Of a stretch of DNA of 59,936 nt, positions 4,656 through 59,936 are shown piece after piece (position 1 is the first letter of the stretch; every line of letters begins with the position of its first letter). Location: positions 1 to 59,936 of IMG/VR virus record IMGVR_UViG_3300042876_000735, one strand, 5' to 3'. Origin of the DNA: a virus. The notes beneath the pieces were generated by a model. It was not told the origin of the DNA. It searched no databases and saw only the letters and a program-made list of their open reading frames with translations. Position numbers and translations under genes: made by a program.

Positions 4656-4672
4656 CATTAATGGAGAAAAAA

Positions 4673-4960
4673 ATGACATTTAAACCATTGCACGATCGCG
4701 TGCTTGTAGAACGCCAAGAACCTACTGAGAAAACTACTGGTGGGATTTTTATCCCCATCTCAGCAAAAGAAAAACCAGCAGAAGGTAAGGTGATTGCCGT
4801 TGGAGAGGGTATTCGTAAAGAAAACGGTACAATTTTGGCGCTCAACGTAAAAGTAGACGACAAAATCTTGTTTGCTAAATATTGCGGCAATGAAGTGACG
4901 ATTGATGGTAAAGACTACATCATCATGAAAGAGTCAGATATTTTAGGAATTTTAAACTAA
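4673..4960 (+). CDS. groES: Co-chaperonin GroES
   Basis: 95 residues, the usual Cpn10 length. [11 protein letters not shown] opens the protein. The mobile loop reads [11 protein letters not shown], the contact that binds Gro[23 protein letters not shown] and the closing ESDILGIL match the family along the whole length. I chose ATG 4673 over 4661 because GGAGA lies at a good distance and the product then starts like other GroES proteins. It forms the heptameric lid of the folding chamber. It sits 20 bases before groEL in the classic operon order. Confidence 0.95.
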
Positions 4961-4980
4961 TAAACTAGGAGACAATAAGA

Positions 4981-6612
4981 ATGGCTAAAAGAATTTTATT
5001 TGCAGAAAAAGGTCGCGAAAAGATTTTGCGTGGTGCACAAATTTTGGCAGACGCAGTAAAGGTAACGTATGGTCCAAAAGGTCGTAACGTGCTTATTGAA
5101 AAAACAAATGGTTCACCTAAGATTACTAAAGATGGTGTGACAGTTGCTCGTGAGATCGATTTAGAAGATAAGTTCGAGAACTTAGGGGCTCGCACCCTTC
5201 GTGAAGCAGCTATTCGATCTGCCGATCTCACTGGTGACGGTACAACAACTGCTACTGTTTTGGCACAAGCAATTTTGACTGAAGGGCATAAAGTTATTGC
5301 AGCTGGTATGAATCCTATGAATATTAAGCGTGGTATTGATCATGCAGTTGAAGTTGTAGTTGAACACTTAAAGAACAGTGCAAAGAATGTAAGTACTTAC
5401 GAAGAGATCGCTCAAGTTGGTACGATTTCAGCAAATGGTGAGCGCGAGATTGGTGACATGCTCGCACAAGCAATGGAAAAAGTCGGTAAAGACGGTGTGA
5501 TCACAGTTGAAGAAGCAAAATCATTAGCAACTGAATTAGAAGTTGTTGAAGGTATGTGCTTTGACCGTGGGTATTTGTCATCTTACTTTGCAACTAACAC
5601 TGAAAAAATGATATGCGAGTTAGATAATCCATTAGTGTTGATTCATGACAAGAAAATCACTTCATTACAACCTTTGGTTAAAGTTTTGGAAAGCGTATTA
5701 CAATCTAGCCGTTCATTATTGATCATTGCAGAAGATGTTGAAGGTGAAGCGTTAGCTGCTCTTGTATTAAATAGATTGCGCAGTGGATTGCGGGTGGCTG
5801 CTGTTAAGGCCCCAGGTTTTGGTGATCGCCGTAAAGCAATGTTAGAAGATATTGCCGCATTAACAGGTGGTCAATTGATCTCTGAAGAACTGGGTATCAA
5901 ATTAGACGGTGTTACTGTTGATATGCTTGGAACGGCAAAGCGTATCGCTGTATCTAAAGATGAAACAGTGATCGTTGATGGAGGTGGAAATAAAGATGAT
6001 ATCCAAGCACGTTGCAACCAAATTCGCCAACAAATTGAACACAGTGATTCAGAATATGATCGTGAAAAATTACAAGAACGCTTAGCTAAATTAGCAGGCG
6101 GTGTTGCAATCGTTCGTGTGGGTGGTGCAACTGAAGTTGAAGTAAAAGAAAAGAAAGACCGGGTTGAAGATGCTATGCATGCGACACGAGCTGCTGTTGC
6201 CGAAGGTATTGTACCTGGTGGTGGAGTTGCGTTGTTGAATGCTATCCAATCATTAGAGAGTATTCAGTTAGAGCACCAAGAACTACGTGTTGGCGTGGAT
6301 ATTATTCGCAAAGCATTAGAAGCTCCAATTCGTCAGATCTTAATGAATGCGGATATTGAACCATCTGTGATTGTGAATAAAATCACAGAAAATAAAGATG
6401 TTAACCTTGGGTATGACGCTCAAAATAACGAGTATGTTGATATGTTGAAAGCTGGAATTGTAGACCCAGTAAAGGTTGTGCGCTCAGCACTTCAAAATGC
6501 GGCTTCAGTGTCTGGTTTATTAATCACAACAGATGCAATGATTGTAGAAAAAGAAGAACCAAAATCAAATACTGGTAGTCATGGAATGGATCCTGGTATG
6601 ATGGGAATGTAA
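4981..6612 (+). CDS. groEL: Chaperonin GroEL (canonical copy)
   Basis: 543 residues, full length. The ATP site is intact: [20 protein letters not shown], the GDGTTT loop with its Asp, and [14 protein letters not shown] with the hydrolysis Asp. The apical domain is complete and the C-terminus is a short Gly/Met tail (GMDPGMMGM). Together with GroES it should form an active ATP-driven folding machine, probably for phage capsid or tail proteins. GGAGA precedes the ATG and a strong hairpin follows the stop. A full groES-groEL pair is rare in a phage of this size. A second, divergent groEL is at 53404. Confidence 0.96.
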
Positions 6613-7852: not shown

Positions 7853-8351
7853 AGAACTTCAAGCATTACAACAATACAAAATCCGAAATCACTTTGAGAA
7901 CCTAGGTCGTGAGCTTGAGAAACTCGTTATGTTCAGCTTAGAACAAACAGCCGAATATACAGGATATTCTGAATATAAATTACAGGATTTCTTCGTAGGA
8001 CAAGGATTAACACCCGAAATATATGTGGACTTAAAGATTAAACTTACGAGTGATGATTATGTTCGACCAGATAGGTTTAGGGTGTGTGGATATAAACCAA
8101 AATTGATCACGACAGATACCGAATATTTAATTACGAAAGATACATTTAACTCTTTAGAGAGTATGATTTTCTGGGATGGTGTTTTTTCTCTTTATGATCA
8201 AGTCGATGTTGAAGTTGTTAGCGAAAAAGAAATTAAAACATATGTTTATACTTCTGAATTTATATACAAATGTATGTCACAATCTCCATTGTTTCTTTCT
8301 GATGAGTTTCAAGCTTATCAAGAATCAAAATCATTCATGAAGAAATATTAG
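7842..8351 (+). CDS. Hypothetical protein next to the array
   Basis: 169 residues, soluble and acidic, no recognised family. The N-terminal half is helical with a EYTGYSEYKLQDFF stretch, and the C-terminal half is richer in beta-type residues. It follows AAAGGAG, which lies inside the upstream gene. The TAG stop touches the first array unit, and the last 10 bases of the gene are part of a 31-bp tandem duplication that runs into the array. Function unknown. A link to the array is possible only by position. Confidence 0.65.
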   Translation: MEDKELQALQQYKIRNHFENLGRELEKLVMFSLEQTAEYTGYSEYKLQDFFVGQGLTPEIYVDLKIKLTSDDYVRPDRFRVCGYKPKLITTDTEYLITKDTFNSLESMIFWDGVFSLYDQVDVEVVSEKEIKTYVYTSEFIYKCMSQSPLFLSDEFQAYQESKSFMKKY

Positions 8352-8396
8352 GGATCTATTACTAACCACAAAGAAATATTATGGATCTACTACTAA
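8340..8396 (+). repeat. 31-bp tandem duplication at the array left edge
   Basis: The stretch starting AAGAAATATTA at 8340 recurs at 8371 with two or three changes, up to the TACTAA at 8365 and 8396. The first copy contains the 3' end and stop of the preceding gene. Array units therefore seem to have grown over the gene end by tandem duplication. Confidence 0.7.
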
Positions 8397-10759
8397 TTAA
8401 TTCAAAAAGGTTCTATTACTTATAGCAATATTTTTGAGCTTTCCAACGGGATATACGAGCTGATTACTATTACTTGGTTGCATCATTGTGAAGTTAGACG
8501 CCCTTATTAAACAACTGTGTTCTATTACTGTTTATTTAGTTTCTGATATACGATTCAAGTAAATCATAGTGTTCTATTACAGTATCATGCACACCACTAT
8601 TTTGTATGGATATACGATATTAGTAAATCATAACGTTCTATTACTCTTTATCGAAAGATAACTTTTTATTTTTGGTATACGTATTCTATTACAGTAGATA
8701 ATTTATTGACACACTTAGTTAGTAAATACGATCTTATAAAACAATAAGGTTCTATTACTATAACGAGTGGCCTGGATCCTCAGGATCTATCACTAATTCT
8801 CTGATTCGGTTACAAAATGTAACCACCTGAAACTGTTAAGGACTATTATTATAAATTCCTTCGATGATTAAAGATTGTGCAAACAGTAGAACACCGTGTA
8901 AAACAACTCTATTACGCTCAATAATTAATTGATTTATTATGTTTATCCACAGAAATTGTGGATAACTATTACTTTTTATTTTTCTAATATGTGAATCTAT
9001 TACCACGATGAATTACAAATATGATTCTTTTACTACAAAGACGCTAAAGCTAGGATTCTATTACTTTATAGCTATTACTATTTGGTTATGGAGTTGTTAG
9101 GTTCTATTACTCATACGCAAGAATTTTTCAAATATATTACAGTATACAACCTTTAAAAAAGATAAAGTTCTATTACACAACTATTTTATTAATTTTCTAT
9201 TACACCCAAGCATTTCTATTACCTAGTTATTTAATTAGTAGTGCAGAATTTTGGTATACGACCCTATAAAATCATAACATTCTATTACTCATTTTAGTGT
9301 CCTTAATAAAAAACATGCGCGAGCTATACAACCTTGTAAAAGAATAAGGATCTATTATTTAATACAGAGATATTTTGGGTATATTACATTATGATTCAAA
9401 AACATTCTATTACTTTAAAAGTACTCGACTGTAAGATTCTATTATGCAGAAAAACTCTTAAGATAAAAACGTTCTATTATCCCCAGTTGTTCGGAAGTCC
9501 TTGTAATCTCTATTACTACATTCTTAATGAGATTCTATTACTAAACTAACTAAGTGTGTCCTTCTTAAATTATAAAGTTCTATTACATAACTGATTTTAT
9601 TGGTTTCTATTATCTAGAAGCTTCTTTTGTCTGGAAACTTATTAAATTATAACGTTCTATTACTCATACGATACCATCAAGTTCAAATCTTTTGATATAC
9701 GATCTTATAAAGACATAAGTTTCTATTACTCCTAATTGATAATAATGAGCGTCTATATCGATTTACGACCTTGTTAAATCATAGATTTCTATTACTTACA
9801 GAATGGAAAAAATGTCCCCGCTGCTGGTATACGATCTTGTTAAATCGTAGTTTTCTATTACAATCAAAACCAAACTGAGTTCGCTTCTGTACTATACGAT
9901 CACGATCTATTACTGGAGCGGCTTAAGAACTATTACTCTACAGTAAAATCACTTGAACTTCTTTTGCTATACGATTTTATTAACTCATAACATTCTATTA
10001 CTGAGACACTACCAGACACTACCCCTATTACTGATCAAGCAAGTGAACTTACTGCCTTTATGATATAGAATCTTATGTTTTAATAATGTTCTATTACAAG
10101 AGATGAGCAAAATAAGGTTCTATTACTGACAAAAAGTAGTCGGATGCCCAATATGGGGTAGACAAACTTATAAAATTATAGGTTTCTATTACAACAAATC
10201 CAAACACACTCTTTTTAGGTAAATGACCATTAAAAACAACTAGTCTCTATTACAGAAAATATCTCAAACAAAATAACGTTCTATTACCACACAAAAGAGA
10301 TACCTATTTTAATACACGGTATACGACCTTCTAATTTAATAACGTTCTATTACATTACGTCAAAGGATTTAGAATCATTGGGTTTCTATTACTCTCTAAT
10401 AGATTCTGTGCGAAGTATATTGGGGGGGCGACCTTATTAAACAATAAAATTCTATTACTTAAGCCAGAGATCTTCTTGTGAAGCTTTAGGATATACGATC
10501 TTGTGATTCGTTAACGTTCTATTACTCATGGCTAGATATTAAGGTATACAACCTTATAAAATCATAACATTCTATTACTTGTACAGCATGTTATAATATA
10601 TGAAAGATGTTATACGACCTTATAAAATCATAGACTTCTATTACCAAACTCAGATATGGTATATGATCTTATAAAATTATAATGTTCTATTATTTCTTGA
10701 CGAGGATCCAGCTCTCTTTCTTTGGAATACAACCTTATGATTTAAAAAGGTTCTATTAC
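8354..10759 (+). CRISPR. Degenerate type II-C-like CRISPR array
   Basis: More than 50 copies of the motif TTCTATTAC (with variants) recur at steps that cluster at about 66 and about 30 bases. Nineteen units carry a full 36-nt repeat: GRTATAC, a 10-nt middle close to GAYCTTATAA, AATCAT, then a 13-nt end close to AACGTTCTATTAC. Full repeats lie at 8545, 8609, 8723, 9141, 9253, 9323, 9694, 9760, 9826, 9966, 10062, 10157, 10318, 10423, 10490, 10543, 10609, 10658 and 10724. Twelve of these follow exactly 30 nt of unique sequence. Other repeats are shortened to 19-31 nt by loss of the middle or 5' part, or to about 10 nt. Some spacers are only 13, 16 or 17 nt. The + strand repeat pairs with the tracrRNA-like gene at 18812. 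Repeats this degenerate, with no cas1 or cas2, argue against active spacer acquisition. An alternative reading as Rep iterons is considered and judged weaker. Confidence 0.8.
8943..8965. promoter_or_regulatory. Paired inverted DnaA boxes (probable origin element)
   Basis: TTATCCACA at 8943-8951 and TGTGGATAA at 8957-8965 are perfect DnaA boxes in inverted orientation, 5 bases apart. DnaA boxes of this form recruit the host initiator at plasmid and chromosomal origins. They lie inside AT-rich array DNA and 2.9 kb before the probable rep gene. This supports an origin here, although only one pair is seen. Confidence 0.6.
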
Positions 10760-10839
10760 TCAGGATGCGTTTGAATATAAAATTTTGGTGGCATTTTTCC
10801 TGTCGCCCTCTCCCATTGGAGTTCGCTTAACAAGCAGAT

Positions 10840-10877
10840 GCCGTAGCCACAGACGGCCTGATTATTTTTGTATTTCT
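10840..10877 (+). terminator. Possible terminator after the array
   Basis: GCCGT (10840-10844) can pair with ACGGC (10853-10857), with CAG and CTG as outer arms. T-rich DNA follows. It lies 80 bases after the last array unit, in the direction of crRNA transcription. The remaining gap to 10980 is AT-rich with a short ATTAAC/GTTAAT inverted repeat and no gene. Confidence 0.4.
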
Positions 10878-10980
10878 TTTTTAACTATGTGATCCAACCA
10901 GTTATAGAAAACAACAACAACTATAACGAAACTTATATTATTAACTTAACGTTGTTAATATACCGTTTACTTTTATTTAA

Positions 10981-11535
10981 TCAATCGGTATTTTGGCTAG
11001 CGTTGATTTCCTGCCACACCTTTTTAATCTCTCTCACTCGGACAGGACTCATCACTAATATTTTCGAGATCTTTTGAGCAGTAAACCCTTCATCTAACAA
11101 TCTCATCACTTCAGATATGTTGTTTAATGTTTTTTCAGTAGGACCCTTCGGGCGACCACATGGTATTTTTTTCTGCCCAATTTTACGGTGATGCTCGACA
11201 TGGCTAACGAGTAAATCACAAAACTTTGGGAGTAAGTTGATTACTTCTTCTTCTTCTGGTTTTACGTTCAAGAAGGAGAGAGTTGCACCTCGTTTTACTA
11301 TGCGGCGGATGAACTTAAAGAAAATAGTTAAGTTATAGGGCATGCTGTTGAAATCGTGCAACACTACCTTATCATGTTTTTCAATAAATTTTATCATATC
11401 AAAAAACTGTTTTTTGGTAGTCTGCTTAGGGCAGAAATCTGCATACAACAAGTCGCATCCAGCCAATGTTAACGCGGTTTTTGCATTGTTGAACGCCTCT
11501 TCGTTCCACCGTTCCCAAACATATCCAATCTTCAT
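10981..11535 (-). CDS. Serine-recombinase-like protein without catalytic residues
   Basis: 184 residues. The N-terminal 95 residues follow the resolvase fold (IGYV at 3-6, AGCDLLYAD near 30, a strand KVVLHD and a helix before RGATLSFLN). The catalytic Ser of the IGYVRVS motif is replaced (IGYVWERW) and the Arg-rich active-site motif LDRLxRS reads HDFNSMPYN. The C-terminal part keeps GRPKG and a helix-turn-helix (about 150-178). I infer a DNA-binding protein that cannot recombine, perhaps a regulator of the adjacent replication region. An intact relative is at 56030. GGGG upstream serves as the ribosome site. Confidence 0.65.
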   Translation of the reverse strand: MKIGYVWERWNEEAFNNAKTALTLAGCDLLYADFCPKQTTKKQFFDMIKFIEKHDKVVLHDFNSMPYNLTIFFKFIRRIVKRGATLSFLNVKPEEEEVINLLPKFCDLLVSHVEHHRKIGQKKIPCGRPKGPTEKTLNNISEVMRLLDEGFTAQKISKILVMSPVRVREIKKVWQEINASQNTD

Positions 11536-13321: not shown

Positions 13322-13772
13322 GGATATCATCGAAGTCTTAGCGAAGAACCCAGATATGACGACTCGATCTGTCGATAGTTTAATCGAACGTATTGGTGAG
13401 ATAACCATACTTAAAGACTTACTCGTACGACATGGAACAACTACTCAAAAAAGACACGGTAAAGTTTTGTTCTTCAAATTCTTCTTTAAAGACAAACATT
13501 TATGTCGGTTGAACTTCATTTTCCCAATAGAAAAGAGTGGAATGCTCTTCAAGCTATGGCGCATTAATCCAAAAGCTCCAATCTCTACTAAAGATCTCAT
13601 GACCGCAAAACATTGGAAACTTTACAAGATGATGAAAGAGCTTGGTGAAAAAATTATTGAAAAAAAATCAGAACATTACGAAGGATGCGTCTATCCAATC
13701 GTTGAGAAAAGGCTAGATGGCTCCATTGTTTTTAGTACCTATCGTCTTCAGAAGATTGTCTGTCCCCGTTAG
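13314..13772 (+). CDS. Hypothetical protein of the replication operon
   Basis: 152 residues, basic, not recognised. It starts within the 3' end of the OB-fold gene (ATG 13314), which suggests coupled translation. It has a helical N-terminus, a Phe/Lys-rich middle (KVLFFKFFFKDKHLC) and a helical Lys-rich part. The 3' end overlaps the terL 3' end on the other strand by 41 bases. Function unknown. Confidence 0.65.
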   Translation: MFEDIIEVLAKNPDMTTRSVDSLIERIGEITILKDLLVRHGTTTQKRHGKVLFFKFFFKDKHLCRLNFIFPIEKSGMLFKLWRINPKAPISTKDLMTAKHWKLYKMMKELGEKIIEKKSEHYEGCVYPIVEKRLDGSIVFSTYRLQKIVCPR

Positions 13773-15477
13773 TGGGTATAGGGATCCTTATATCATCGGT
13801 ATAATCTGTTGTAGAATATTCGTCCCGAAGCTTCTCCACCATGCTTGAAAAGTTCTTATGCTGGAATTCATCATTCGTTTGAATAAAGTTATGGGTTGTT
13901 AAGTAATCCACAGTCATCGAAAACGTATCCACAATATCTCTAGCAGCTTCTACGTTGTGAGGGAAGTTACAACAGGCTTTGATAAATCGATCTGCAATAG
14001 AATGAGGCCTAGACATATCATATCGGTCTGGCATTACCCAGATTCTACCAGACTCAACCATTGGAGTTGTTAAACGAGCACGCAAGACTTTACCATCCTC
14101 ATTCTTACCGTACATGCGGGTTCCTAAACGCGGAGGAATATAGGGGAGGGCATTTATACTTAACTTGCGCAAATGCTGCACCAGAGATAACCCGTTTGCC
14201 TTACCTTCAATTAATAAAATATCTACAGGAGCATGCCCGTGGTGTGGTTGGGTTTTATCAGTATCATGAATGTTGTAGTATAAGCGTGCGATCATTTTTG
14301 CTAACTCGTTCCACTCTTCTTTGCCATGCCAAGAGTTTAAGAACATTAAATTATGAACGCCATCTTTCTTGAATACTCCCCAAGATGTACAGGCAGAATA
14401 ACTCGCAGTCGCCGTAACGGTGATGGCTGTATCCCAACTCTGTATAACGAAATCAAACTTCGGAGGCATTGGATGAGGCCAGATCTTAAACCAGTCTCGG
14501 CTGAAGACTCCACCTTTATCTGGAACTGGTAAACACTGATAAAGCGAAGAAAACTTAACCGCACTCATCGTCTTTTTAGTTCTCTCTACTTCACGCTTAG
14601 AATATCTGTGAGGGTTAATATATTCGCCATCTTCTGTCCTAGGATCTTGCCAGAATATCTTGTTAGATCCTGGTAAATATGTCACACATTTTCTAGAAGA
14701 GTCGTATTCAAACGGCATTTCAACGCTAATTAAATCATCAAACCCCTTAGATTTAATATGCGAATAAAAATCATTAGAAGCTACCCGGTGCTGGTTCACC
14801 ACAAATATAGTTTTTTCTGGGTCATTTTGACGGTGAATAAACACGTTATCAAACAGTTCATTCGTGTGATCCAGTAAGCTTGGTTTATCTGCGTCTACGA
14901 TATTGTTGGGGTCATCGAACATAATTATAGTTCCACCTTGACCCGTGTTGTGTCCCTCTAGGCTGTTTGCAATTCGTTCACCTGAAAGATTATTAGCTGT
15001 TTTGTGTTTGTTTGTTTCGATCAAGAAGAACATATCCCCAAACACTTGTTGGAAAGGTTCACTCATGATTAAGCGTTGCATGTACGCGTTGTCACGCTTT
15101 GCAACTTGATCAGAATAAGAGGTCGCTAAAATACGTTCTTTTGGGTTATTTATCCATGTCCAAGCGGGCCACATGACATTAATGAAGGTAGACTTAGCTT
15201 CACGTGGTGGGGCAGTAAACAGAAAGAATTTATACCATCTATGATAGAGGGCATACAGATGCTCTTTAAGTGCATCAAATGTGTAGCCAGGAATCAGTGG
15301 TGTAGAAGTACTCGCATAAGGCCAGAAATCTTTATAAAAAAGACCAAGATCTTTTTGATATGTTTCTCGTAATTCTAAGATAATAGGTTCAACTGCACCA
15401 TTTAATAGTCGGTCGATCCCGTTATAGGTCGACTTGAGGCGTTTAACCTCTTTGTTGAGGGTATAAAGAAGGGACAT
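13732..15477 (-). CDS. terL: Terminase large subunit
   Basis: 581 residues. The ATPase domain has a Walker A variant APPREAKST at about 89-97, a coupling motif region with ATSYSDQVAKRDN, and the Walker B IIMFDDPN. The C-terminal RNase H-like nuclease begins with VIQSWDTA, whose Asp is a metal ligand, and continues with DILLIEGKANG. It pumps DNA into the prohead and cuts it. Its leader carries the AT-rich TTAATAATAATAAC element shared by late genes (15481-15510). A terminator separates it from cas9. No small terminase is recognised; the HTH protein at 36172 is a candidate. Confidence 0.93.
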   Translation of the reverse strand: MSLLYTLNKEVKRLKSTYNGIDRLLNGAVEPIILELRETYQKDLGLFYKDFWPYASTSTPLIPGYTFDALKEHLYALYHRWYKFFLFTAPPREAKSTFINVMWPAWTWINNPKERILATSYSDQVAKRDNAYMQRLIMSEPFQQVFGDMFFLIETNKHKTANNLSGERIANSLEGHNTGQGGTIIMFDDPNNIVDADKPSLLDHTNELFDNVFIHRQNDPEKTIFVVNQHRVASNDFYSHIKSKGFDDLISVEMPFEYDSSRKCVTYLPGSNKIFWQDPRTEDGEYINPHRYSKREVERTKKTMSAVKFSSLYQCLPVPDKGGVFSRDWFKIWPHPMPPKFDFVIQSWDTAITVTATASYSACTSWGVFKKDGVHNLMFLNSWHGKEEWNELAKMIARLYYNIHDTDKTQPHHGHAPVDILLIEGKANGLSLVQHLRKLSINALPYIPPRLGTRMYGKNEDGKVLRARLTTPMVESGRIWVMPDRYDMSRPHSIADRFIKACCNFPHNVEAARDIVDTFSMTVDYLTTHNFIQTNDEFQHKNFSSMVEKLRDEYSTTDYTDDIRIPIPTNGDRQSSEDDRY

Positions 15478-15525: not shown

Positions 15526-15553
15526 GAAAAAAAACAGGGGGCTTACACCCCCA
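15526..15553 (-). terminator. Intrinsic terminator of cas9
   Basis: On the minus strand TTGGGGG, a 6-base loop and CCCCCTG form a stem followed by eight T. It lies 36 bases after the cas9 stop and before terL, so cas9 is a single-gene transcript. Confidence 0.85.
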
Positions 15554-15588: not shown

Positions 15589-18500
15589 TCATGAGCGTAC
15601 TTTAACTCGTTTTTGATTTAAAGTAAATGGGACACGTTTAGGAGCCGTTACAAAAGTTTTCTGTCCAAAAATAGAGTAGTTCTCGATTTGGATATGCGAG
15701 AATGACGGCATCGAAAACGTTTTATCCTCATAGTAGAAGCTTTCTTCGACTCCATCCTCGTAGACTTTCTTTGTAATGTTCTTCATCATGATTGCTGAAT
15801 TCGAGCGGTTGATCGTGTTAAAAAAGCCCTCTACCACCGTTTTGAAATTACCCTTCTCATCCATTTTCTTAAGAATAATCTTACAGTTCTTAAAGAGCGA
15901 TCCTTTGAACTCAAACGATGAATCTAATGGTGCAACATGGCGTCCATCAATGATGATATTTGGTAAACGGTTTTTAATGGCATCCATCGCATATATAGGA
16001 CAAATATACAGTTTGAAATCTTTCGAAAAGACATCTACTCGGACTAGATCTCCATTAGCCGCTACACCATTGGATTTAAAGATACCACTTCGCATATCAA
16101 TGAAGATCTCAACCCCGTAAATCCTAACTGGCATGTTAAATTTACCAGGAACAAATATTGGATCGATAAACGCTTTTTCACCTTTGTCGTTATGGGCTTC
16201 TAACCGAGCTTTGATTTCCGCAACAATTGGAACCATTTTCGGATGATCAGCTGCCACAATCTTATCAATATGAAGAAGTCTTAAGTTTTCCAATCTAACG
16301 AATTGGCGAACCTTGTTTTCTTTGTTTTCACACAACTCAGGATCAAGAACAAAGTTTTCATGTTCTTCGTAGATCTCTTTCATAATAGGTGGTAAGCGAT
16401 ATAAGGTTTCACCATGAAGCTCACCTTTAACCTTAGCGCAAATCATTCGGTTTAATTTAGCCTTAGATAATGCCTCTTTAATTTTATCTGCAAAGCTTAA
16501 AAATGGCATCGGAACAGACTCAAGTTGCTCATCAGCTTTTAAGGCGTTCGAAATATTTTCTACTATATTACGAGAAGCATATGTCAATAAAATTGCTTCT
16601 AAAATCTTCTCAGTAGAATCAATTTTCTCACCATCACCATCCACAGCTTGAATATCATGTAGATTCCAAAAACTCTTTAAAGATGAAAGGAGTTGTTTCG
16701 GGATTGCGTGCACTCGATTCTTGTCGAATAAATATTGAGTTAAGTGCTCTTTGAACCGTTTATTAATATAACGAGAGTCGTTTATATGGCGGCTCTTGAG
16801 CTCTTCTTCGTTAATCTCTTCACATAATAATTTTTCGATCTTGCGCTTTCGAATCTGTTTATCTTCATACATTTTGTTGAGCTCGCTTACGAAACCTTTC
16901 CAATAATCATCGTTATCTTTAGAGATCTCATAGAGCGTCTTATTCTTCTTTTTAGCTAAAACCTCTGCATATACCAAAGCTTTGTTGTCAAAAGAATCGT
17001 CAAACGAACGAGAGTATGGAATGATATGTGTGACTGCAACTTTGTTACTAATTAACAAATTTTCTGGGATTGGTTTGTTTGTAAATAAGCACTTCTTATT
17101 TTGAAGTAACCACAGCTTACCTTTTGTAATAAAATGGTCGGAAACATTTTCAATGCCAAGCTGTAAGAATATCTCGCGGACTTCATCGTTAATCTGTTGA
17201 TTAACTTTGTTCCGACTTACCATTTTTCTACGGTCAGACATAGACTTACCCAGTTCTTTTGAAGAAGTAATAAAAACATCATCAATTGGATATTCATTCA
17301 TAATTGAATTCAAAAGTTTACGTGCTTCGGCGTTCACCCTATCTACTACTGGGTTCTTTGTCGATTCAAACGGTGGGAGCTTTTTAACATGGGCTGAGGT
17401 TAATTCATTCTTAAAATATTCTTCATAGATATCTCGATAAGTATAACCTTCTTGTAGGTGTTGGATAAAAAAGTTCATCGCTTTAATTGAGAGAGAAGAC
17501 GTGCCAGAAAATTGAGTTAACGCTGATAGTTTTTCAACAATGTCGAAAAGATCTTCTCTTTGTCCGTGGATACACCCAAACTCCTCAAACAAAGAAATGA
17601 TCTTTTCTCTCAGATCATCATAATCAAAAATGAATGACAAAAGAAAGATTAATTTATCGTAAAATTGAATCGCCACGGCATTATCTAAAATTTGATCTGG
17701 ATGTTTCTTATCGAGAGGGAACTTAAAATCAGGAATAGAATTCACAATAGGCTGCAACGCATGGAATGATGAGAACTCAAAAAACGCAGAGCTAGTGCCA
17801 TTCTCCTCTAGATTTATTTTGTATTCCTCAGTTATTTTTAATATTTTTCTCAAGCGATTCCAGCTCACCTTCTTTACTTGGAAAACATCAAATATGATAG
17901 TTCTTACATGCTCAAGGGTGATTTGAAACTCTTCATAGCTGGGTTTATACCGTACGATACGTAGCGAGTTAATCTTCTGTAGGAGGTTAAAAATATTTGT
18001 GGTGAAAGAGTGTTTTGGGGCTCTCTTTTCTTCTGGATAAATGGAACAGTTACCAATCATCTGTTCGACAGCTTTGAGGGGACGCTGCCAAAACAAGATT
18101 GATTTAATTTTTTCAGCAGATTCTGGTGTTAAAAAATCAGACTTTAAATTTAGTTGTGAACTTACAATTTGATCATATTCATTTATGAGCATTTCGCGTG
18201 TTGGGAATGATATAAAGTTTCCATTACGGTTACGCTTAATGGGGTTGTTTTTTAAGTATTCTGCATAAGTACGCGCAGATGATTGAGAGAGTTGTTCTTT
18301 TGTTTTATTCATTAAATCTAAAAACAAACCCTTCTTGTCGTCATCTTCATTATTTAGACGATTAGATGAATAACCACGTGTGTTAGAAATGTGACACACG
18401 ACAGATGCAAACTCAGATATGGTAAGTTTTTCGTCTAATGCTTTGACACGAACATTCCATGCATCACGCATCAATCCAGCAAAAAGGGGAGACTCTTTAA

Positions 18501-18738
18501 ACTGAAACGCTTTATACATATACTGCTTTAATCGTAATAATCTGCGTTTCGTTCTCTTCAAAAGTAGGCGTTTACGTCGTGCCTGCGCGCGGGGCATATT
18601 AAGGCTTTCCCCAGTTTTGGGGTTCTCTGCGGGTGTGAAATAATGAATCCCACTAATCTTGATTGGATCAGTGCTATTAGACTGGTCCACAACCGAATAT
18701 GCGATAAATGATGGTGCTAAATTTAAACCTAAATACAT
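15589..18738 (-). CDS. cas9: Catalytically dead type II-C Cas9
   Basis: 1049 residues, close to the 1082 of Neisseria Cas9, with the same order of blocks. RuvC-I is at 1-18. The Arg-rich bridge helix is at 49-74, after NPKTGESLNM. A helical recognition lobe follows. RuvC-II lies near 480-500, HNH at 550-600 (CLFTNKP to NKALV) and RuvC-III near 705-720. The C-terminal WED/PAM region contains MVRVDVF-like LVRVDVFSK and ARLEAHNDKGEKAF. The active sites are altered: RuvC D to N6, E to T491, H to K711, D to E714; HNH D to T570 and the catalytic Asn to L594, with His571 kept. The frame is otherwise intact, so selection has kept RNA-guided binding but probably not cleavage. It has its own promoter and terminator, a divergent tracrRNA and a CRISPR-like array, but no cas1, cas2 or csn2. 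I infer an RNA-guided repressor. Confidence 0.93.
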   Translation of the reverse strand: MYLGLNLAPSFIAYSVVDQSNSTDPIKISGIHYFTPAENPKTGESLNMPRAQARRKRLLLKRTKRRLLRLKQYMYKAFQFKESPLFAGLMRDAWNVRVKALDEKLTISEFASVVCHISNTRGYSSNRLNNEDDDKKGLFLDLMNKTKEQLSQSSARTYAEYLKNNPIKRNRNGNFISFPTREMLINEYDQIVSSQLNLKSDFLTPESAEKIKSILFWQRPLKAVEQMIGNCSIYPEEKRAPKHSFTTNIFNLLQKINSLRIVRYKPSYEEFQITLEHVRTIIFDVFQVKKVSWNRLRKILKITEEYKINLEENGTSSAFFEFSSFHALQPIVNSIPDFKFPLDKKHPDQILDNAVAIQFYDKLIFLLSFIFDYDDLREKIISLFEEFGCIHGQREDLFDIVEKLSALTQFSGTSSLSIKAMNFFIQHLQEGYTYRDIYEEYFKNELTSAHVKKLPPFESTKNPVVDRVNAEARKLLNSIMNEYPIDDVFITSSKELGKSMSDRRKMVSRNKVNQQINDEVREIFLQLGIENVSDHFITKGKLWLLQNKKCLFTNKPIPENLLISNKVAVTHIIPYSRSFDDSFDNKALVYAEVLAKKKNKTLYEISKDNDDYWKGFVSELNKMYEDKQIRKRKIEKLLCEEINEEELKSRHINDSRYINKRFKEHLTQYLFDKNRVHAIPKQLLSSLKSFWNLHDIQAVDGDGEKIDSTEKILEAILLTYASRNIVENISNALKADEQLESVPMPFLSFADKIKEALSKAKLNRMICAKVKGELHGETLYRLPPIMKEIYEEHENFVLDPELCENKENKVRQFVRLENLRLLHIDKIVAADHPKMVPIVAEIKARLEAHNDKGEKAFIDPIFVPGKFNMPVRIYGVEIFIDMRSGIFKSNGVAANGDLVRVDVFSKDFKLYICPIYAMDAIKNRLPNIIIDGRHVAPLDSSFEFKGSLFKNCKIILKKMDEKGNFKTVVEGFFNTINRSNSAIMMKNITKKVYEDGVEESFYYEDKTFSMPSFSHIQIENYSIFGQKTFVTAPKRVPFTLNQKRVKVRS

Positions 18739-18766: not shown

Positions 18767-18794
18767 ATTATAAACCAGTTGCTTCTTATATCAA
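18767..18794 (-). promoter_or_regulatory. cas9 promoter
   Basis: On the minus strand TTGATA (18794-18789), a 16-bp spacer and a perfect TATAAT (18772-18767) precede the cas9 ATG by 28 bases. It overlaps the tracrRNA promoter that runs the other way, so RNA polymerase cannot use both at once. Confidence 0.7.
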
Positions 18795-18807: not shown

Positions 18808-18811
18808 GATT

Positions 18812-18900
18812 ATGATTATTATGTATATCTATTAAAACTGCCTTCAGAAATGATTGAGCGGGTAAAGCTCTGGACCGATTCATTCGGTCCATCTTTTATT
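18812..18900 (+). ncRNA. tracrRNA-like RNA
   Basis: The 5' part is an anti-repeat. ATGATT (18812-18817) pairs with AATCAT of the repeat, TTAT (18819-18822) with ATAA after one bulged A, and GTATATC (18823-18829) with GATATAC at the repeat start. Six repeat bases are left as the bulge. Then comes a small TCA-GAAA-TGA hairpin, a stem GAGC/GCTC (18857-18871), the sequence GCTCTG that also ends the Neisseria tracrRNA nexus, and a terminator (GGACCGA with TCGGTCC) followed by ATCTTTT. This is the order of elements in type II-C tracrRNAs, and it lies divergent to cas9. Confidence 0.8.
18873..18900 (+). terminator. Terminator of the tracrRNA-like RNA
   Basis: GGACCGA and TCGGTCC form a 7-bp stem with a 5-base loop, followed by ATCTTTTATTTT. 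It ends the small RNA before the promoter of the next gene. Confidence 0.75.
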
Positions 18901-29275: not shown

Positions 29276-29347
29276 AGGCGCATTAAGAGAGTCGAACTCT
29301 TATTCCCTCCTCAAAAGCAGGTTCTTACCATTAGTAGAAATGCGCCC
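29276..29347 (-). tRNA. tRNA-like element (possible Gln, UUG)
   Basis: On the minus strand GGCGCAT and ATGCGCC can form an acceptor stem. AAGAG-TTCGACT-CTCTT forms a normal T-arm. CCTGC, loop TTTTGAG, GAGGG gives an anticodon arm with TTG and one mismatch, and ATGGTA lies in the D-loop. Spacing deviates: the D-stem is 3-4 bp, the variable loop is short and one extra base lies before the acceptor. No CCA is encoded. It may be a degenerate or tRNA-mimic element. Confidence 0.45.
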
Positions 29348-53403: not shown

Positions 53404-55068
53404 ATGACGGCTAAACTCTATCAATTTGGCGAAGAAGCCAAGCAATCAATCTTAGCGGGTGCGGAATTACTCTATAAAAGCGTAGGTTCTACCTTTGGAC
53501 CACGTGGTTCAAACGTTCTCATTCAAAAAGTTACTGGCGAACCAAAAATTACAAAAGACGGTGTGAGTGTTGCACGTGAAAATGATATTAAAGATTACTT
53601 TTTAGATATGGGATTACGCTCGCTTAAAGAAGTCTCAGTTCAGACTGTTGATCGAGTTGGTGATGGTACAACTGGAGCTGTAATTTTTGCGTATCATCTT
53701 TTGAAAAACGGATTTGCATCTAACCTTACCCCCTTACAGATAGACAAACTAGTTGACTACTCAAACTACTGCGTAGACTTACTCAATACATTAAAAATTG
53801 ATATTTCCGAGAAGCATGATTTGTTAGGAGCAGTTGCTAAAACGTCTGCTAACGGTGATGAAGAAGTTGAAGCAATTATTAAGGAGGGGTTAAAGTTCTT
53901 AGGAGCGGATGGTAACTTCTTATTAGAAGAGAGTAAGAATAAAGAGACTCATATTCTTGCAAGTGAGGGCGTTTATCTTCCTGTCGGTTTAACCTCTCCG
54001 TTTTATGCTAACACCCCTGGAAAAGTTGTTTGCGAATTAGAAAATCCAGTAATCATTCTGACTGATCAGAAGATTAATTTCTTTGACGAGATAAAATATC
54101 TCATTAAACATATTCAGAGTGATGCAGAAAAACAACACCGTCCTATCGTCATTATTTGCAATGATATTAGCTTTGAGGCGGAGGCAGGGTTGGTAGCGAA
54201 CATTAAATCCGAAGGCAAGTATTTCAAATTTGCATGTATATCTATGGCGAAAATGTTGCAAGAAGGACACGCTCAAAAAGTAGATTTGTTTGAAGACTTA
54301 CATAAGGTATTTGGAGGTAATTTAATTTCTAAGTCTCAAGGGTTAAACTTAGGAGCGACTTCAGCTAAACTTGCAGCTAAATCAAACAATACAGGTTCAT
54401 GTAAGAAAATTCTAATCACAATGTCTAAGACGATAATCGTTCCTGATGAAGATCGATTAGATCAAATTAGAGCGTATTCAGAAAACATTAAAGATTTAGC
54501 TGAAAAAGCTCAAGACGAAGTAGAGAAAAAATATCATCAACGAAGGCTAGCACGCTTATCTGATGGAGTAGCTGTGATTTCAGTTGGTGGGTATTCCGAT
54601 CAATCAGCTAAAGAAAAGAAAGATCGTGTTGAAGACGCGATTTGTGCTGTTCAGTCAGCCCGTAAGCACGGGGTGTTTCCTGGTGGGTGTTCGGTCTATC
54701 GTTATTTGCTGAAAAAAGTTACTGAGCGGTTTGCGAATGAAGACTGTCAATCCTTAGCGGTGTTCATTGAAGCTTTAAACTCCATGACTGAGAAATTATA
54801 TAAGGGCTTACCTGAGGAAATGATTCCAAACTTCCCAGAATCAGATGATCCATTAAAATGGACAGGGCACAACTTAAAGAAAGTCAAAACTGGGAAAGAA
54901 CCAGTGGTTCGAGTATGGGATGAAGGAGTGATTGAGGCAGCGTTTGTTTCTATTGAGACCATCCGTAATGGAGTGGACGTTGTAAAGCTGTTGCTTAACA
55001 CGGACACAATCATAGTGTATGACATAGAAGAGATGCGGAGGAGTACACCAGGGTACGTGAGCGCATAA
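53404..55068 (+). CDS. Divergent chaperonin GroEL, copy 2
   Basis: 554 residues. ATP-site parts are kept: STFGPRGSNV, KDGVSVAREN, VGDGTT and KDRVEDAICAV. The nucleotide loop GGG reads GGC (PGGCSV), the apical domain is strongly changed, about 50 extra residues lie near 460-500, and there is no Gly/Met tail. It resembles the chaperonins of giant phages more than bacterial GroEL. No second GroES is next to it. It may be specialised for a phage client, or mix with GroEL subunits. Confidence 0.9.
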   Translation: MTAKLYQFGEEAKQSILAGAELLYKSVGSTFGPRGSNVLIQKVTGEPKITKDGVSVARENDIKDYFLDMGLRSLKEVSVQTVDRVGDGTTGAVIFAYHLLKNGFASNLTPLQIDKLVDYSNYCVDLLNTLKIDISEKHDLLGAVAKTSANGDEEVEAIIKEGLKFLGADGNFLLEESKNKETHILASEGVYLPVGLTSPFYANTPGKVVCELENPVIILTDQKINFFDEIKYLIKHIQSDAEKQHRPIVIICNDISFEAEAGLVANIKSEGKYFKFACISMAKMLQEGHAQKVDLFEDLHKVFGGNLISKSQGLNLGATSAKLAAKSNNTGSCKKILITMSKTIIVPDEDRLDQIRAYSENIKDLAEKAQDEVEKKYHQRRLARLSDGVAVISVGGYSDQSAKEKKDRVEDAICAVQSARKHGVFPGGCSVYRYLLKKVTERFANEDCQSLAVFIEALNSMTEKLYKGLPEEMIPNFPESDDPLKWTGHNLKKVKTGKEPVVRVWDEGVIEAAFVSIETIRNGVDVVKLLLNTDTIIVYDIEEMRRSTPGYVSA

Positions 55069-55674: not shown

Positions 55675-56058
55675 TCAGAACTCATTTAAAAGAGTATTCA
55701 AACGTAAGATATAACTACTATATTTCTCTAGTTGTTTTTGGGTATGGGAGGTTCTGTAACCATTCTTCAAGCTAATGGTTTTACTGCTGTACGTTTCTGC
55801 GCGAGGTGTAATATCAATGATAGTATCACGCATTGAAGTTACCTCCTTTAAGTACTTCTTAAGTAGTAAACTTTTTTGCATAGAAATCTCAATAGAGTTT
55901 GAAGTATTTATTAGCGCAGCAATGAGTTGGTTAAGGGCATCAACAGCTTTACAAATATCACTTTTGACGCCCGAAATAACACTCTCTTTATCTGGTGAAT
56001 AGTGGCATTCTCTCATTCTTTCAATTGAGTCAATTGCTTTCCAAATTTGTTCGTTCAT
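55675..56058 (-). CDS. Small helical protein
   Basis: 127 residues, helical and charged, with a KVxxVxDALNQL-like coiled region. It resembles the general style of the minus-strand block proteins (helices, Ile/Leu/Thr-rich). Its start overlaps the resolvase 3' end by 29 bases. Function unknown. Confidence 0.6.
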   Translation of the reverse strand: MNEQIWKAIDSIERMRECHYSPDKESVISGVKSDICKAVDALNQLIAALINTSNSIEISMQKSLLLKKYLKEVTSMRDTIIDITPRAETYSSKTISLKNGYRTSHTQKQLEKYSSYILRLNTLLNEF

Positions 56059-56623
56059 TATTATTCTTTCTTAAGTATTTTAAAATTGTTGATCGACTTA
56101 CTTTGTAATATCTAGCAATATAAGATACATTGCCAAACTCTTCATACATTTTTTGTATATCTTGTGCAATTTGAGGTGAGAACTTAGGTTTGCGTCCTTT
56201 GTATGCTCCCCTCAGTTTAGCTTTAGCAATCCCTTCATCACGTTGACGAGCAGCTAAGCTTCTAAAGAACTGTGCAACCACTCCAAAGATTTGAACAACA
56301 AGATCATTAAATGGATCTTCTTTACCTGTAATCGTTAGCTTCTCCATTCTGAAGTGGATTGTCACACTTTTTTGACGCAGCGTTTTAATGATTTGCAAGA
56401 GATCTTCAATACTACGAGCAAGACGATCTATGGAGTCGACAAACAACTCATCACCTGGACGCAGGATATAGGTGATGAGGTTCTGAAGCACTGGACGGTC
56501 AGACATATTTGCACCAGACATTTTCTCTTCAAAGATGTGGTCTAGTTCAAGACCGTCTAATTGTCGGGATGTGTTTTGTTCAAGCGTAGATACACGGATG
56601 TATCCGATTTTTTTAGGTTTCAT
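56030..56623 (-). CDS. Serine resolvase (active type)
   Basis: 197 residues. The N-terminal catalytic domain has IGYIRVST (catalytic Ser), ELFVDSIDRLARS (active-site Arg residues) and the long helix with RSLAARQRDEGIAKAK. GAYKGRKPK and a C-terminal HTH (YKVSRSTILKYLRK) follow. It resembles Tn3/plasmid resolvases of about 190 residues. It probably resolves genome dimers in the plasmid state. AGGAAA precedes the start. A dead relative is at 10981. Confidence 0.93.
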   Translation of the reverse strand: MKPKKIGYIRVSTLEQNTSRQLDGLELDHIFEEKMSGANMSDRPVLQNLITYILRPGDELFVDSIDRLARSIEDLLQIIKTLRQKSVTIHFRMEKLTITGKEDPFNDLVVQIFGVVAQFFRSLAARQRDEGIAKAKLRGAYKGRKPKFSPQIAQDIQKMYEEFGNVSYIARYYKVSRSTILKYLRKNNNERTNLESN

Positions 56624-59809: not shown

Positions 59810-59936
59810 GGGGGTGGGGGTGGTAACCCCTGAGACCCCCCTTCTTGTGCTAGCACATATGTCGCCCACCTCTGCTGTTGTTTCACCCCTATTTTCCCAA
59901 AATTTATGTAATCCCCCTTTTCTGTCATGTCGTCTG
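59810..59936. repeat. Terminal direct repeat, right copy
   Basis: Exact copy of bases 1-127. One of the two copies should be removed when the genome is circularised. Confidence 0.95.

Follow-up and report, generated by a model that had tools for sequence, protein, structure and literature searches.

The cas9 gene and its catalytic sites

The window analysed here, the whole 59,936-nucleotide (nt) length of IMG/VR virus record IMGVR_UViG_3300042876_000735, carries a gene for a Cas9 protein whose catalytic residues are replaced, a degenerate array of clustered regularly interspaced short palindromic repeats (CRISPR) and a candidate trans-activating CRISPR RNA (tracrRNA). The cas9 gene occupies 15589..18738 on the minus strand, starts with ATG and continues for 1049 codons with zero internal stops. 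It lies between a promoter, TTGATA-16-TATAAT (18767..18794, minus strand), that matches the consensus at 11 of 12 positions and an intrinsic terminator, graded strong, in which GGGGGTGTAAGCCCCC is followed by a T run (15537..15552, minus strand).

The 1049-residue protein, P0001, has a type II-C fold. It matches the NCBIfam family cas_Csn1 (TIGR01865) over residues 2-1022 (E=1e-121, 408 bits, cut-off 100), and phmmer comparison with solved Cas9s gives E=6e-83 for ThermoCas9 (9ar4) and about 1e-82 for Nme1Cas9. The AlphaFold2 model, built from a 40-sequence alignment, has a mean predicted local distance difference test score of 79, and its best Foldseek matches are the same two proteins, with a template modeling score of about 0.7. 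An origin by chance of a 1049-codon open frame with an end-to-end match to Cas9 is excluded.

Alignment of P0001 with 83 other Cas9s, taken from bacterial contigs, two plasmids and one phage record, defines the changes in the active sites. Asp6 of RuvC-I, present in 82 of 82 others, is replaced by Asn, and Glu491 of RuvC, present in all 83, by Thr. Within HNH, Asp570 (82 of 83) is Thr and Asn594 (83 of 83) is Leu; His571 (83 of 83) is retained and is the sole catalytic residue left. Finally, the RuvC-III residues His710 and His711 are Glu and Lys, respectively, and Asp714, present in 83 of 83, is Glu. Seven of the eight catalytic-site columns, all eight near-invariant among the other Cas9s, are thus replaced. 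Overall, P0001 agrees with the other Cas9s at 59 of 90 near-invariant columns and departs from them at 31; the catalytic columns have been lost preferentially (7/8 versus 31/90 overall, hypergeometric p=0.002). The bridge helix, residues 48-78 of the model, is still arginine-rich: Arg50, 54, 57, 62 and 66 are retained, while Arg51 and Arg58 are lost. P0001 is, by its sequence, a full-length type II-C Cas9 homologue and not a Cas9 nuclease, and the main sign of selection that can be read from its gene is a frame still open after the loss of seven catalytic residues.

These results agree with the original prediction for this gene, which had described a fully open frame with its own promoter and terminator, an end-to-end alignment with Neisseria-type Cas9, a bridge helix, and the replacement of every catalytic residue that it named except His571. 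Of the checks it proposed, structure prediction and alignment give an Nme1/ThermoCas9-like fold and the same replaced columns. The array and the candidate tracrRNA had been missed.

A degenerate array and a candidate tracrRNA

The array fills a 2.4-kb gene-free stretch (8341..10760, plus strand) and contains about 50 copies of a repeat 3' core, CTATTA(C), in the form TTCTATTAC and variants of it. All 31 exact occurrences of TTCTATTAC in the genome fall within this stretch. Twenty-two of the cores end full 36-nt repeats, whose consensus is GGTATACGATCTTATAAAATCATAACGTTCTATTAC. The commonest core-to-core distance, found 13 times, is 66 nt, or 36+30; full repeats mostly begin 28-31 nt past the preceding core, and many of them exactly 30 nt past it. 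A 36-nt repeat with a 30-nt spacer is the geometry of Neisseria. Each of the 22 full repeats differs from all the others; the mean identity among them is 71% and is unevenly spread: 96% over the nine 3' bases, 63% over the 5' part and 30%, equal to background, in the spacers. The stretch has the repeats and unique spacers of a type II-C array, with mutually unrelated spacers and with repeats that are only 71% alike. In Campylobacter jejuni, and similarly in Neisseria meningitidis, a −10 box within the 3' end of one repeat drives transcription of the next CRISPR RNA (crRNA), which starts at about spacer position five (PMC3656092). A repeat-borne −10 promoter of this kind would explain why the repeat 3' end is conserved here even in truncated copies.

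The plus strand is favoured as the direction of the array because an intrinsic terminator, GCCGTAGCCACAGACGGC, follows it on that strand (10840..10857). The reverse reading, in which GTAATAGAA would belong to the repeat, was rejected, since the plus strand is the one that suits both the terminator and the tracrRNA. The repeat had no exact match in the viral contigs searched, and an Rfam search returned nothing. Two palindromes lie inside the stretch. One, TTATCCACA-GAAAT-TGTGGATAA (8943..8965), is a perfect, origin-like DnaA-box palindrome and not a CRISPR part. The other, GGTTACAAAATGTAACC at 8808-8824, lies among 27 bases of which 25 recur in a second genome, G224 (L205, 1505-1531), near a LuxR-like gene, and is possibly a shared operator. 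Matches of array pieces to loci L205, L207 and L210 were judged to be chance or operator-like.

The candidate tracrRNA (18808..18895, plus strand) is upstream of cas9 and divergent from it. It contains GATTATGATTATTATGTATATC, followed by a nexus-like hairpin, GAGCGGGTAAAGCTC, and then by a terminator hairpin, TGGACCGATTCATTCGGTCCA, with a T-rich tail (18871..18891, plus strand) that would form the end of the RNA. The anti-repeat has two parts on the plus strand. An upper stem, TTATGATT (18810-18817), pairs with AATCATAA of the repeat, and a lower stem, GTATATC (18823-18829), pairs with G(A/G)TATAC. Over the 22 full repeats, 85% of the pair cells hold standard pairs, against 28-49% when the two sequences are slid relative to each other. 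At repeat positions 2 and 25 the variation is mostly A against G, and either base pairs with U. When only Watson-Crick pairs are counted and the gap is left free, this site is the best anti-repeat in the genome outside the array; it was chosen by eye before testing, and the free-gap ranking is the fair figure. Judged by sequence and predicted pairing, the candidate has the make-up of a type II-C tracrRNA. Two other candidates were rejected, one a minus-strand RNA at 10755-10960 and the other the plus-strand hairpins that follow the array; their folds were not significant and their anti-repeats no better than those of shuffled sequences.

A second dead Cas9 and the carrier phage

A broad-alignment search of viral contigs found eight Cas9 loci. 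All eight catalytic columns are intact in six of them, and the seventh is intact wherever it can be read. The eighth, L165, lies on a phage contig, IMGVR_UViG_3300047170_000189, that is a fragment with terminase and portal genes. In L165 the RuvC-I Asp is Thr, the HNH Asp and Asn are Ser and Ala, respectively, and the first RuvC-III His is Phe; the RuvC-II Glu and RuvC-III Asp are retained. A divergent upstream RNA gene, its putative tracrRNA, pairs with the L165 repeats at −40 kcal/mol and has a strong terminal hairpin. The array is degenerate: some repeats are 36 nt long and others are cut to about 22 nt by internal deletion, while the spacers stay near 30 nt. Part of it, at 9600-9798 of L165, is inverted relative to the remainder. 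No cas1 or cas2 was seen on the contig fragment.

L165 therefore shares with P0001 a dead RuvC-I and HNH, a putative divergent upstream tracrRNA gene, a degenerate array and the lack of any visible cas1/cas2. The two differ in repeat sequence and in Cas9 clade, and the proteins are only 25-27% identical. In the tree, L165 sits beside one intact Cas9 of alphaproteobacteria (support 0.99) and is far removed from P0001, and because the two lie in such distant clades, their catalytic losses are, on the evidence of the tree, independent. The 83 reference proteins are intact apart from rare single deviations, some 100 other Cas9s that were checked are essentially intact, and further readable alphaproteobacterial Cas9s depart from the pattern only by conservative or single deviations (HNH Asp to Glu; one His to Asp). 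Where arrays are visible near intact Cas9s, their repeats are regular. Additional scans of viral sequences for dead Cas9s brought up L165 again and no other, and the viral structure library contained no full-length Cas9.

The record that carries P0001 is a virus contig with terminase, portal and tail or structural genes, the terminase large subunit (TerL; 13732..15477, minus strand) adjoining cas9. Its ends form an exact 127-nt direct repeat (positions 1-127 and 59810-59936), an identity that makes it probable that the record is the complete genome of a phage, assembled as a circle. A search of the whole record for the cas1 and cas2 families matched nothing, and for this reason the phage system is not a complete adaptive CRISPR system. 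Phages related by terminase, at 48% identity and less, are without Cas9. A host-derived groES-groEL operon (4661..6612, plus strand) has 84% DNA identity with its counterpart in G120, a small alphaproteobacterial genome; GroEL is 91% identical, and the next lineage reaches 68-69%. This similarity points to a host lineage related to G120. A second, divergent GroEL-like chaperonin (phrog_5725; 53404-55068, plus strand) is about 30% identical to the GroEL of that lineage. The genome also encodes a resolvase-type serine recombinase (56030-56623, minus strand), a partial DNA-invertase-like protein that adjoins the array (10981-11535, minus strand) and a tRNA-Gln with anticodon ttg (29276-29346, minus strand). 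An integrase was not noticed.

A proposed RNA-guided DNA binder and its alternatives

A comparison with the type II-C systems of N. meningitidis, C. jejuni and Geobacillus shows the same Cas9 fold, domain order, 36-nt repeats and 30-nt spacers. The −10-like repeat 3' end (PMC3656092) and a tracrRNA with anti-repeat and terminator are likewise shared. The phage-borne system differs in that its RuvC and HNH residues are replaced, cas1 and cas2 are missing and its repeats all differ from one another. What the sequence itself shows is a Cas9 with dead active sites that has retained its fold and bridge helix, together with the degenerate array, the repeat-complementary RNA gene and the absence of adaptation genes. 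On this basis, P0001 is proposed to be a natural, nuclease-dead type II-C Cas9, encoded by a phage and acting as an RNA-guided DNA binder, a natural form of CRISPR interference (CRISPRi), with a probability of roughly 0.6. The original prediction had likewise favoured binding without cutting, which the sequence supports but does not prove; the array, the candidate tracrRNA, the missing cas1/cas2 and L165 add weight to it.

The proposed mechanism takes its later steps, from guide transcription to DNA blocking, by inference. Transcription of each spacer would be driven by the −10-like element (TTCTATTAC) in the 3' end of the repeat before it, following the pattern of C. jejuni and N. meningitidis. 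The 5' part of the repeat would pair with the tracrRNA, and the duplex would be trimmed by host RNase III. The dead Cas9 would then load the guides and open R-loops at targets flanked by a protospacer-adjacent motif in host, rival or phage DNA, and transcription or replication would be blocked there with the DNA left unbroken. Because cas1 and cas2 are missing, the guides would be fixed and inherited, and this would account for the repeats having drifted apart. A wider proposal, held more tentatively and at somewhat less than even odds, is that at least two phages, with hosts that are probably alphaproteobacteria, independently converted a type II-C CRISPR-Cas9 into a fixed multi-guide DNA binder that silences a set of genes during infection, using a dead Cas9 with its own tracrRNA and about 20 guides that are inherited, in the absence of adaptation genes.

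Several observations weigh against an RNA-guided role. In viral contigs and GTDB genomes searched with P0001 alone no close relative was found, the best identity being about 29%. P0001 is also the longest branch in the tree, and 24 of its 82 non-catalytic near-invariant residues are altered. About half of the repeat cores are without the 5' part that would pair with the tracrRNA, and the pairing positions of the repeat are not clearly more conserved than the unpaired ones. When wobble pairs are counted, one genic site scores slightly above the candidate tracrRNA, and by duplex energy alone the candidate does not stand out, chance sites scoring better. Furthermore, a search for protospacers gave nothing beyond chance in 50,697 phage records, 72,556 plasmid records, three TerL-related phages or other genomes of the predicted host order. 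The phage's own genome showed no excess, and in a 1.36-Mb genome of the predicted host lineage 3'-anchored seeds were not clearly above offset controls. Some of the plasmid matches fall on the DnaA boxes. The spacers of L165, compared with phages, plasmids and alphaproteobacterial genomes, likewise gave no target. An array unit whose spacer is 13 nt long and the cas9 coding region share an exact 17-nt match (10645-10661 and 18408-18424, respectively), in an orientation that would block cas9 transcription, so that a self-regulating guide is possible; the match is weak and not significant, as 1 of 30 shuffles reached 17 nt.

Much of this would also be expected of a CRISPR-Cas9 system that the phage acquired and that is now decaying, its nuclease dead and its array and protein drifting without function. 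Degenerate and often truncated repeats, the absence of cas1/cas2 and of targets, the altered conserved residues and the long branch all suit such a history. Decay is nonetheless rather unlikely, since 1049 codons have stayed free of stops and frameshifts despite large divergence, cas9 keeps a strong promoter and terminator, and the catalytic residues have changed out of proportion to the rest (7/8 versus 24/82). The tracrRNA, moreover, still matches 85% of the pair cells, many units have held to their 30-nt spacing, and a second, independent phage has the same set of parts. The repeat stretch could instead be an iteron-like replication or partition element, to which the Cas9-like protein binds or is unrelated. 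Its DnaA-box and operator-like palindromes, and its many unequally spaced cores, fit that idea; the 66-nt period of 36+30, the mutually unrelated spacers, the complementarity to an RNA gene beside cas9, the terminator after the array and the same geometry in the L165 array beside its dead Cas9 do not, and they leave it highly improbable.

Two further explanations give the dead Cas9 a working role. RNA-based decoys are known among phages, and a Cas9 that has dead active sites but still its RNA-binding surface would be well suited to act as a dominant negative, sequestering host crRNA:tracrRNA or protecting targets against host Cas9. For such an anti-CRISPR decoy, a candidate tracrRNA of its own and many distinct spacers would be superfluous, and Cas9 was not found in the three genomes examined of the predicted host order, so that this role is a slim prospect. 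The dead Cas9 may, alternatively, be aimed at rival phages or plasmids instead of host genes, excluding superinfection by binding. Phage-borne CRISPR systems often target competitors, and the same parts would serve. The phage and plasmid searches described above, together with that of the TerL-related phages, count against this variant, although these collections may lack the competitors of this phage. It is a minority possibility, and as it shares the mechanism of the RNA-guided binder, its share is counted within the figure of 0.6.

No natural dead Cas9 was found in the open literature; most subscription papers and preprints lay outside this search, so no claim of priority is made. Engineered dCas9, used for CRISPRi, shares with P0001 the loss of both nuclease active sites and the guided DNA blocking predicted here, and differs in being man-made and in two changed positions against seven. 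A closer parallel, and the nearest described thing to a natural dead Cas9, is TldR, a group of TnpB-like nuclease-dead repressors carried by phages (PMC13418256). Both are phage-encoded RNA-guided nucleases that have lost their catalytic residues and have apparently kept guide and DNA binding. They come from different lineages, TnpB in one case and Cas9 with a tracrRNA in the other. TldR uses one guide per protein, compared with about 20 potential guides here.

Dead Cas9 has been a laboratory invention. If P0001 is a natural, multi-guide RNA-guided DNA binder, evolution would have arrived at CRISPRi by way of Cas9 just as, in TldR, it did by way of TnpB, phages could carry fixed RNA-guided regulons, and ready-made DNA binders would be on offer. 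Its recurrence in two distant clades would turn an oddity into a searchable class: Cas9s without catalytic residues, beside degenerate arrays and without cas1/cas2.
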